Positions 4,479 through 7,391 of a DNA stretch of 64,000 bases are shown in pieces (the stretch's first letter is position 1; each line of letters opens with the position of its first letter). Position numbers and translations under genes: made by a program. The DNA is taken from the NCBI GenBank assembly GCA_001771815.1, contig MEPU01000004.1, forward strand, positions 310,001-374,000, written 5' to 3'. The notes under the pieces are model-generated. The model saw nothing but the letters and a program-made list of their open reading frames with translations. It had not been told where the DNA came from and did not search any database. This DNA comes from Bdellovibrionales bacterium RIFCSPHIGHO2_01_FULL_40_29. GTDB lineage: Bacteria; Bdellovibrionota; Bdellovibrionia; Bdellovibrionales; Bdellovibrionaceae.

Positions 4479-4510
4479 AAGCGGATATGATCTAAGTCAT
4501 ATCCGCTTTT
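4479..4510 (+). terminator. Intrinsic terminator after the 2607-4445 lipoprotein gene
   Basis: A 12-bp perfect stem (4479-4490 with 4497-4508), a 6-base loop and a short T-run. It lies 33 bases past the stop codon. It separates the lipoprotein gene from the U32/chorismate mutase operon. Confidence 0.85.
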
Positions 4511-4576
4511 CAGCATTATGATGCATTTTATGATGTTTGATTAAATCCATATAAATGCTGAAAAAAAGGACACTCG

Positions 4577-5851
4577 ATGAAACCGTCTCTTGAATTACTT
4601 ATGCCCGCAGGTTCCACCAATAAAATGAAACTGGCATTGGAATACGGGGCGGATGCAGTTTACTTGGGACCACCCCTTTTCAGTTTGCGCGCACGTGAAA
4701 ATCATTTCAATAATTTGGAACTGAACCAAGCCATCGCTGACGTTCACGCTCGAGGCAAAAAAGCCTACATGACTTTGAATATTTTTTCACGAAATCGAAA
4801 ACTCAAACCCTTTTCCGAAGCCGTTGTTGAGTTTGCAAAAATGAAACCCGATGCGTTTATTATGAGTGATCCGGGAATGGCTTCTATCGCGCGCAACCTG
4901 GCGCCAGAAATTCCCATTCACCTGTCTGTGCAGGCCAATTGCATGAACTGGGAAAGTGTGAAGTTTTGGAAAAAATCGCTTGGTATTGAGCGCGTGATAC
5001 TCAGTCGAGAACTATCTATTTATGAAATTACAGAAATCAAACAACGCGTTCCCGATATTGAATTGGAAGCCTTTGTCCACGGATCCATCTGTATTGCTTA
5101 TTCTGGCCGCTGTCTGATGTCATCTTATATGGATAATCGCGATGCCAATCAAGGCGTCTGCGACAATTCATGCCGAGAAAGTTTTAAAGTTTTTGAAAAA
5201 GATTATTTTATTGAAGATGCCAAAAATAATCCGGGTGAACTTTATCAAATTGATGAAGATGAACATGGAACCTATATTTTAAATGCCAAAGATCTTTGTA
5301 TGATCGAGCATTTAGATAAACTGGTCGCGGCAGGAGTGATTTCATTCAAAGTCGAGGGACGCACGAAATCTGAATTTTATGCGGCGATGGTGGCCAGATC
5401 GTATCGTGGTGCCTTGGATGATGTCATCGCCGGTCGGCCCATCAATACTGAGTGGTCTCGGTCGCTTGATAAGTTAACCAATCGAGGCTATCACACCGCC
5501 TTTATGCTGGAAAACCCAGGATCAACAGGACAAAATTACAAAGCCAGCACCCAATATCAGGAACAGTATAAATTTTTAGGTTATAACGATGACACCTGCG
5601 AGCAGGCCTTGGCTGACGGTGACGTTTCCATACACGTTAAAAATAAAATTCACTTGGGTCAAACTGTCGAAGTATTACGGCCGGGAGCTTCTCCATTGGT
5701 AGCGAAAGTGATCTCGATTCAAAATCAAAAAGGCGAGTTCAAAGATCAAGTTCATTCCGGAAGCGGTATTCATCGTTGCCACCTGGATATCACCCAAAAA
5801 ATACCGCCCTTCGCGCTGCTGATCACAGATTTGCAATCCGAGGCAAAATGA
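4577..5851 (+). CDS. U32 family RNA-hydroxylation protein (TrhP/YegQ- or RlhA-like)
   Basis: A 424-residue member of 'peptidase family U32'. It starts with LELLMPAGSTNKMKLALEYGADAVYLG, a TIM-barrel-like opening. The family signature EAFVHGSIC is at residues 164-172, and four Cys at 172, 179, 195 and 199 match the iron-sulfur-binding cluster of this family. E. coli members TrhP and RlhA are needed for 5-hydroxylation of tRNA wobble uridine and of a 23S rRNA cytidine; the peptidase label is historical. The length (about 424, with a C-terminal beta domain) is closer to TrhP/YegQ than to longer RlhA. The stop overlaps the start of a chorismate mutase gene, which fits the known dependence of these reactions on prephenate. 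Confidence 0.8.
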   Translation: MKPSLELLMPAGSTNKMKLALEYGADAVYLGPPLFSLRARENHFNNLELNQAIADVHARGKKAYMTLNIFSRNRKLKPFSEAVVEFAKMKPDAFIMSDPGMASIARNLAPEIPIHLSVQANCMNWESVKFWKKSLGIERVILSRELSIYEITEIKQRVPDIELEAFVHGSICIAYSGRCLMSSYMDNRDANQGVCDNSCRESFKVFEKDYFIEDAKNNPGELYQIDEDEHGTYILNAKDLCMIEHLDKLVAAGVISFKVEGRTKSEFYAAMVARSYRGALDDVIAGRPINTEWSRSLDKLTNRGYHTAFMLENPGSTGQNYKASTQYQEQYKFLGYNDDTCEQALADGDVSIHVKNKIHLGQTVEVLRPGASPLVAKVISIQNQKGEFKDQVHSGSGIHRCHLDITQKIPPFALLITDLQSEAK

Positions 5852-6123
5852 AACAACGCACTCTTAGTGATCAAATAGAAATCAATCGAAAAAAAATTGA
5901 TCATATTGATCGCGAGCTTTCTGCTTTACTGCGCCAACGAATTCTAGTGGCTCAAAAAATTATTGCCGCTAAAAAAATGATGAATAAAAAACAAGTGGAC
6001 CCTGATCGCGAAGAGCACATCCTTAAAAAGTATCAAAAAAAATTAAAAAGCGTCAGCACTCCGAAACGTCTTAAAGCATTGGTCATTGCGATTCTACGGT
6101 CGAATCAAAAATATAAAAGTTAA
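5848..6123 (+). CDS. Stand-alone AroQ-type chorismate mutase
   Basis: A 91-residue all-helical protein starting at an ATG that overlaps the previous stop (ATGA), so translation is coupled. The AroQ pattern is clear: NRKKIDHIDRELSALLRQR (helix 1 with active-site Arg), then AAKK, then VDPDREEHIL, which carries the Asp-x-x-Arg-Glu group lining the active site. It would convert chorismate to prephenate. It is not fused to prephenate dehydratase or dehydrogenase, and no other aromatic-pathway gene is nearby. Its only neighbour is a U32 protein whose reaction is known to need prephenate. The frame is open upstream to 5776, but that part lies inside the U32 gene and is not family-like. Confidence 0.85.
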   Translation: MKQRTLSDQIEINRKKIDHIDRELSALLRQRILVAQKIIAAKKMMNKKQVDPDREEHILKKYQKKLKSVSTPKRLKALVIAILRSNQKYKS

Positions 6124-6179: not shown

Positions 6180-7391
6180 GTGTTTTTGAAAAATGAATCT
6201 GAAAAAACAGTGCTCAACCCCACAGTCATCAAACTTGGACTGATTTCTTTATTTGCGGATATCGCCAGTGAAATGCTGTACCCTATCACCCCTATTTTTT
6301 TAACAACTGTCATTGGAGCCTCCATGGCTTCAGTTGGATTTATCGAGGGTTTTGCTGAAGCCACAGCAAGTCTTTTAAAAACATTCGCTGGAATGTGGTC
6401 AGATCAAATTTTAAAACGTAAGCCATTTATTATTATTGGATATCTATTCTCAGCACTAAGTAAACCCTTGATCGGTTTTGCCAGCACGTGGCCCCATGTT
6501 TTATTCGCACGCAGTTTAGACCGCATAGGCAAAGGTCTCCGAACTCCACCTCGTGATGCACTTCTGGCCGAGGCTGTTTCTGAAAAAAAACGTGGTGCTG
6601 CCTTTGGCTGGCATCGCGCGATGGACACCATGGGTGCCGTTATTGGACCATTGCTTGCGATTTTATATCTTTCGCTATCAAATGATCTGCGAATCATTTT
6701 TTACTGGGCACTTGTGCCTGGTTTGATTTCTGTTGGAATTGCTTTTTTAATCTCAGATAAAAAAACACACCTTCCATCAGCAAACCGACAGAAAATTCAA
6801 TTTTTTGAATTTCGTTCGCTCTCGCCGTCTTTCAAATCCTATCTCATTGCATGGACTGTATTTGCCATGACCAACTCAAGTGATGCTTTTTTATTAATGA
6901 AAGCCAAATCTGTTGGCATCCCATTGATTGAAGTGATTTTGCTTTATTGTTTTTATAATTTAGTTTACGCCTGGCTAAGTCCCTACTTCGGTCATCTATC
7001 GGATCGAATCGGTCGAAAGCCCGTACTGATTCTGGGACTACTGGTGTTTGCGGCGGTCTATGTTGGATTTTCAATAGCCACAGACAGATGGCATTTTTGG
7101 ATTCTTTTTGGAGTCTACGGATTTTACATGTCAGCAACAGATGGTGTCGGCAAGGCCTTCGCTGTTGATCTTGTTGATCCAAAGAAAAAAGCCACAGGGC
7201 TTGGCCTATTTGGAACGCTGACTGGAGTCGCCACATTGATCGCCAGCACTGTTTCAGGAGTTCTATGGGATCAGTTCGGATCAACAATTTCATTTCTATA
7301 TGGATCCCTTGGCGCTGTACTGAGCGTTGTCCTTTTATTGATATTTGTCAGAACTGATTCTAAGTCTAGCATGTTAAAATTCAATCAATAA
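6180..7391 (+). CDS. MFS transporter
   Basis: A 403-residue protein with about 12 membrane segments. It shows MFS features: GLISLFADIASEMLYPI in TM1, a loop 2-3 signature (WSDQILKRKPFIIIGY) and RSLDRIGKGLRTPPRDAL in TM4. The second half repeats the loop signature as GHLSDRIGRKPVLILGL. The subfamily is common in proteobacteria, but its substrate is unknown to me. The annotated start is GTG 6180; TTG 6186 is an equally good start because GGAG at 6177-6180 would sit at normal spacing before it. It lies 57 bases after the chorismate mutase gene and may be in the same transcript. Confidence 0.8.
   Translation: MFLKNESEKTVLNPTVIKLGLISLFADIASEMLYPITPIFLTTVIGASMASVGFIEGFAEATASLLKTFAGMWSDQILKRKPFIIIGYLFSALSKPLIGFASTWPHVLFARSLDRIGKGLRTPPRDALLAEAVSEKKRGAAFGWHRAMDTMGAVIGPLLAILYLSLSNDLRIIFYWALVPGLISVGIAFLISDKKTHLPSANRQKIQFFEFRSLSPSFKSYLIAWTVFAMTNSSDAFLLMKAKSVGIPLIEVILLYCFYNLVYAWLSPYFGHLSDRIGRKPVLILGLLVFAAVYVGFSIATDRWHFWILFGVYGFYMSATDGVGKAFAVDLVDPKKKATGLGLFGTLTGVATLIASTVSGVLWDQFGSTISFLYGSLGAVLSVVLLLIFVRTDSKSSMLKFNQ

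Follow-up and report, generated by a model that had tools for sequence, protein, structure and literature searches.

Which reaction is served by a stand-alone chorismate mutase whose gene overlaps that of a U32 protein? In E. coli, formation of ho5U34 in tRNA by the U32 protein TrhP requires prephenate and is restored by a PheA with only its chorismate mutase (CM) activity or by added prephenate (Sakai et al., PMC6599085). Hydroxylation of C2501 of 23S rRNA by RlhA is likewise prephenate-dependent in this organism (PMC11574389, PMC10470549). Whether prephenate might supply the oxygen in reactions of the U32 family has been discussed, direct evidence being said to be missing (PMC11574389, PMC10470549), and whether prephenate acts as an oxygen donor, a cofactor or a mere precursor in O2-free RNA hydroxylation by U32 proteins remains open in the literature (PMC6599085, PMC11574389). 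For the locus studied here, the original prediction was that the mutase feeds the U32 reaction rather than, or as well as, Phe and Tyr synthesis.

The two-gene locus and its products

The window (the whole stretch of DNA analysed, 64,000 nucleotides) was said to hold a U32 gene and a stand-alone AroQ-type CM gene sharing an ATGA overlap. This claim held, as both open reading frames, their domains and the overlap were confirmed. The features of the locus are as follows.

4577..5851, + strand: TrhP-like U32 gene, 424 aa, domains PF01136 and PF16325; proposed prephenate-dependent tRNA U34 C5-hydroxylase
5848..6123, + strand: stand-alone AroQ-type CM gene, 91 aa from ATG; proposed dedicated prephenate source
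5848..5851, + strand: ATGA, overlap of the U32 stop and CM start (seen in the sequence; translational coupling inferred)
4566..4570, + strand: Shine-Dalgarno-like AAGGA before the U32 start (seen in the sequence)
5840..5843, + strand: Shine-Dalgarno-like GAGG lying in U32 at its 3' end, with 4 nt between it and the CM ATG (seen in the sequence)
4479..4508, + strand: 12-bp perfect inverted repeat with a 6-nt loop, followed by TT (sequence and RNA fold)

RNA folding of the inverted repeat gave −19.9 kcal/mol (z −6.45), and this hairpin is likely to be the terminator of the upstream gene; hence the operon probably begins at the U32 gene. The hairpin was absent from the output of a consensus terminator scan, for which its short T run is the probable reason, and a promoter scan of the locus gave only chance-level matches. 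An MFS transporter gene lies on the same strand 57 bp 3' of the CM gene (6180-7391). Read-through into it is possible; no evidence ties its function to the U32-CM pair.

The U32 protein matched Peptidase_U32 (PF01136) with 285.5 bits and U32_C (PF16325) with 34.7 bits. Among NCBIfam models TrhP (NF011996) ranked best at 463.5 bits, with UbiU well behind at 188.6 bits; the TrhP equivalog cut-off of 534 bits was missed, so we refer to the protein as TrhP-like. Residues E162, C170 and C177, which are essential in E. coli TrhP (PMC6599085), align with E164, C172 and C179 of the window protein, and the further cysteines C193 and C197 are likewise conserved as C195 and C199. The protein shares with E. 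coli TrhP (YegQ) the U32 and U32_C domains, the catalytic glutamate and cysteines and about 42-44% identity. It differs in its setting: in E. coli no CM lies next to trhP and prephenate is drawn from PheA/TyrA of the Phe/Tyr pathway, whereas the window gene is overlapped by a CM gene in a genome without PheA/TyrA activities and with no detectable CmoA. UbiU/UbiV belong to the same U32 Fe-S hydroxylation family, with prephenate under discussion as its oxygen source (PMC11574389, PMC10470549), but the window protein matches UbiU far more weakly than TrhP and the substrates of UbiU/UbiV are ubiquinone precursors. No sequence relative of the window U32 protein was found among solved structures.

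The 91-residue protein matched CM_2 (PF01817) with 46.4 bits, above the gathering cut-off of 27. Its R14, R31, K42 and R54 correspond to R11, R28, K39 and R51 of the E. coli CM domain (EcCM), the four cationic residues of the AroQ active site, and are invariant over 18 sequences sharing 17-34% identity with the window CM, both E. coli CM domains among them. The position of EcCM Gln88 is occupied by lysine, the C-terminal helix aligns poorly, and NCBIfam CM equivalog cut-offs were not reached. An AF2 model showed three helices of the lengths expected for AroQ, but with a mean pLDDT of only 69, and its structural comparison returned only generic helical bundles and was uninformative. CM activity is therefore inferred from sequence alone and is not certain, given the missing Gln88 equivalent and the sub-equivalog scores. 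The protein resembles monofunctional AroQ mutases (e.g. PDB 1ybz) and the CM domains of E. coli PheA/TyrA in its CM_2 family membership and key Arg/Lys active-site residues, and differs from them in its divergent third helix and in being neither fused to nor clustered with Phe/Tyr enzymes.

Prephenate-related genes in the source genome and its relatives

The source assembly (2.93 Mb, 99.99% complete) contains CM_2 once, namely the window CM. The question of another mutase in the genome is thus answered in the negative for AroQ-type enzymes; AroH-type mutases (PF07736) were outside the scope of this search. A second, weak CM_2 match proved to be a TonB-like protein. The genome has chorismate synthase and a single U32 gene of the TrhP type, with no RlhA-type U32. 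Profile searches found neither prephenate dehydratase (PDT) nor prephenate dehydrogenase (PDH), although the same searches were positive in 14/14 control genomes. As arogenate dehydratase and arogenate dehydrogenase are members of the PDT and PDH families, these negative searches extend to the arogenate route. CmoA, which uses prephenate (PMC6599085), was also undetected (best match 24.8 bits versus a cut-off of 193.3). Since PDT, PDH and CmoA all went undetected, the U32 protein is the sole recognised consumer of prephenate left in this genome.

The original prediction left the target open between tRNA and rRNA. As the single U32 protein is of the TrhP type and no RlhA type is present, we correct this to ho5U34 in tRNA rather than ho5C in 23S rRNA; RNA hydroxylation itself is inferred, without biochemistry. 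The lack of detectable CmoA makes cmo5U an improbable end product.

Among 60 relatives (source genome included), CM_2 was found in 20 and U32 above cut-off in 19. Both genes occurred together in 17 genomes, CM alone in 3, U32 alone in 2 and neither in 38 (Fisher p 4e-10). PDT was present in 3/60 and PDH in 6/60; in the relatives keeping either, the CM lies in a long frame with PDH or within a TyrA/DAHP-synthase cluster, and mostly does not directly adjoin U32. Fourteen CM-positive relatives lack both PDT and PDH, all with chorismate synthase, and in these the CM gene abuts U32 in 13 and a CmoA-like gene in one (G025). In all 14, therefore, the neighbour of CM is a gene of prephenate-dependent RNA modification, as far as function can be inferred.

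PDT and PDH are likewise missing from all 38 relatives that have neither CM nor U32. Being equally devoid of these two enzymes, these relatives show that loss of CM goes with loss of U32. When only PDT- and PDH-negative genomes were counted, both genes were present in 13, U32 only in 2, CM only in 1 and neither in 38 (13/2/1/38; p 1.3e-9). The same pattern is seen within the source genus, where 9 members lack both genes, 4 have both and one (G011) is truncated. In G011, which shows U32 without CM, the contig starts inside the U32 gene exactly where relatives of the same genus carry CM. The real exception is G042, with a TrhP-type U32 (L215 5164-6516), the only CmoA above cut-off in the 60 relatives (L216 4638-5381) and no detectable CM_2; either it has another CM or its U32 is able to work without one. 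The p-values overstate the association, as related genomes are not independent and shared ancestry was not corrected for. Nonetheless, CM and U32 are kept or lost together among these relatives.

Arrangements of the pair and change of U32 partner

Conserved adjacency of U32 and AroQ genes had been proposed as a check, and it was found in many relatives, with two U32 paralogues and in several arrangements. Across 241 genomes of the phylum, 115 have CM and U32, 8 only CM, 9 only U32 and 109 neither (Fisher p 6e-47, uncorrected for shared ancestry). Within the order, a stand-alone CM outside a Phe/Tyr gene cluster was found in 36 genomes and lies directly beside U32 in 29 of them, far more often than expected by chance. 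The arrangements seen are listed below.

TrhP then CM, same strand: G000, G020, G023, G027, G028, G041, G049, G106, G124, G201, G204, G215, G233, plus G111
CM then RlhA, same strand: G001, G006, G009, G017, G032, G202
Convergent, gap up to about 75 bp: G018, G110, G114, G138, G143, G148, G167, G173, G240, G255
Convergent or divergent, gap 0.5 to 1.7 kb, usually with one gene between: G157, G180, G198, G217, G246
CM away from U32: G025 (beside a CmoA-like gene), G251

The convergent layouts include CM facing RlhA, and in G251 the AroQ CM and U32 are on different contigs. Both gene orders include cases of overlapping stop and start codons, for example ATGA in the window (TrhP-CM) and in L013 (CM-RlhA). 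Given several layouts, this is not one locus passed down unchanged.

In the inspected families outside the order, CM lies mostly in Phe/Tyr clusters with PDT, TyrA or DAHP synthase, so a dedicated mutase would not be expected there; direct CM-U32 adjacency was not seen in them save for the TrhP-CM pair in G111 (family f24). In G149 the U32 gene follows a Phe/Tyr-type cluster, with DAHP synthase between CM and U32. For other phyla, a profile search of genome contigs with a TrhP alignment gave 80 loci, mainly from beta- and gammaproteobacteria, and none had an adjacent CM except L058 (Bdellovibrionales HKST-UBA04). L058 is not an independent case, being the same genome as G041 with an identical CM, and was counted once.

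Two other sets of loci were noted. TrhP genes on viral contigs (L233-L312) lie mainly at proviral contig ends and are probably host yegQ genes flanking prophages. Family f18 (L204-L208, L210) carries a divergent CM_2-like domain, encoded by ORFs of about 130-145 aa that precede a cytidylate-kinase-like gene and are not near U32.

A CM tree built on 98 columns left many forks unresolved but placed the family's RlhA-linked CMs in a supported clade (99/95). The CM of G124 is nested within the RlhA-linked clade (100/97), yet its gene directly follows that of TrhP, the only U32 of this genome. Hence G124 shows a partner switch, an RlhA-clade CM now standing beside TrhP. The grouping of the window CM with two RlhA-linked CMs is also supported (99/95), but the branches are long and may attract each other. 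It appears that the mutase goes with whatever U32 a genome retains.

The CM-linked RlhA-type proteins of the relatives resemble E. coli RlhA (YdcP) in having U32 and DUF3656 domains, all four U32-domain cysteines and 28-34% identity. They are longer (about 850 aa versus 653) and have CM upstream or convergent; this type is missing from the source genome. An RlmI/Rlm2499-like 23S rRNA m5C methyltransferase gene is found near CM-RlhA in five loci (L322 6560-7861, L226 4465-5679, L212 1728-2942, L228 5284-6498 and L327 5264-6478). In G001 the CM, RlhA and Rlm genes overlap on one strand, and in g6 genomes Rlm and CM are on one strand facing RlhA. This neighbourhood may be an rRNA-modification island.

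A putative RNA-hydroxylation module and its alternatives

Gene content, adjacency, co-occurrence, co-loss, the partner switch and the conserved catalytic residues are shown by our data. The reading we favour, and consider likely, is that U32 and CM are a minimal RNA-hydroxylation module in which the mutase is dedicated to U32; here CM activity, the RNA product and any functional coupling or channelling are inferred. The AroQ mutase would turn chorismate into prephenate, which the TrhP-like Fe-S U32 protein would use, possibly as an oxygen source, in hydroxylating C5 of tRNA U34. With the known branches to Phe and Tyr lost from the lineage, the mutase would be retained only to feed the hydroxylase, with which it would be co-translated. 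Where sister genomes have a mutase of this kind beside an RlhA-type U32, it would feed hydroxylation of 23S rRNA C2501. The predicted feeding of the U32 reaction is thus strongly supported by comparative genomics, with the biochemical link still an inference. In a genome without PDT and PDH the first option of the prediction, "rather than" Phe/Tyr synthesis, is a better fit than the second, "as well as".

The setting is one of relatives of predatory bacteria in which Phe/Tyr synthesis by the known route is lost. Genomes such as the source genome offer a natural dissection, as the Phe/Tyr branches and CmoA are gone and the prephenate step and U32 remain, an argument for prephenate itself as the compound required by U32. 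The pair also provides a two-gene cassette for reconstitution, and a CM gene in such genomes should not be counted as a sign of Phe/Tyr prototrophy. That U32 proteins depend on prephenate is known; their arrangement with a dedicated CM appears to be new within the open literature searched. The only open-access paper recovered on both protein families was PMC6599085, in which no description of the linkage was found, and description elsewhere is not excluded. A chorismate mutase in a Bdellovibrio proteome paper was considered as a precedent and rejected, as it concerns Bd3486, annotated as DAHPS/CM, with no mention of U32.

A bolder reading, which we regard only as a possibility, is that CM and U32 are a physical unit in which U32 activates the mutase or receives channelled, unstable prephenate. 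The pair would then be a minimal O2-independent machine running from chorismate through prephenate to oxygen transfer, established on separate occasions for tRNA (TrhP) and for rRNA (RlhA) among bacteria that lack the Phe/Tyr branches. If true, prephenate itself would be the co-substrate, and not a dehydratase or dehydrogenase product.

The alternative that survives best, although we consider it unlikely, takes the mutase for an ordinary enzyme of aromatic amino acid synthesis that lies here by accident, with Phe/Tyr made through an unrecognised dehydratase or dehydrogenase, or through spontaneous dehydration of prephenate to phenylpyruvate followed by transamination. Prephenate is chemically unstable, and the window CM is the only CM_2 of the genome, which the original prediction had feared would mark an ordinary Phe/Tyr enzyme. 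This concern is countered by the absence of PDT and PDH from the source genome and from 13/13 other CM-positive genomes of its class. Furthermore, in relatives that keep PDT/PDH the CM is either fused to PDH or clustered with TyrA/DAHP synthase, mostly not adjoining U32, and CM vanishes when U32 does in genomes all equally lacking PDT and PDH.

It is very unlikely that the AroQ-like protein has ceased to be a mutase and serves U32 as a structural or regulatory partner, for example by binding prephenate or chorismate: the lost Gln88 equivalent, the lost C-terminal helix similarity and the scores below CM equivalog cut-offs would favour this, as would the M. tuberculosis CM, an example showing that an AroQ domain may have low activity by itself and gain it through a partner, but the four cationic residues are invariant and the AroQ-type search found no other prephenate source in a genome whose U32 protein would need one.

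There is equally little to support a mutase making prephenate mainly for CmoA (carboxy-SAM for cmo5U), with the U32 linkage reflecting a shared cmo5U pathway. In its favour, the CM of G025 directly precedes a gene for a CmoA-like protein in a genome without U32. Against it, the one relative in 60 with an above-cut-off CmoA (G042) has no CM_2, the source genome has no such CmoA, and CM is also linked to RlhA-type U32, that is to rRNA hydroxylation, outside the cmo5U pathway. The dedicated module with U32 thus remains our preferred reading for the window. As a separate observation, at the G025 locus (L214 4222-5991) the gene after CM encodes 490 aa with two methyltransferase domains; the C-terminal half of this protein is CmoA-like (TIGR00740, 96.8 bits, under the model cut-off of 193.3), and the pair could be a second kind of prephenate-for-RNA module.
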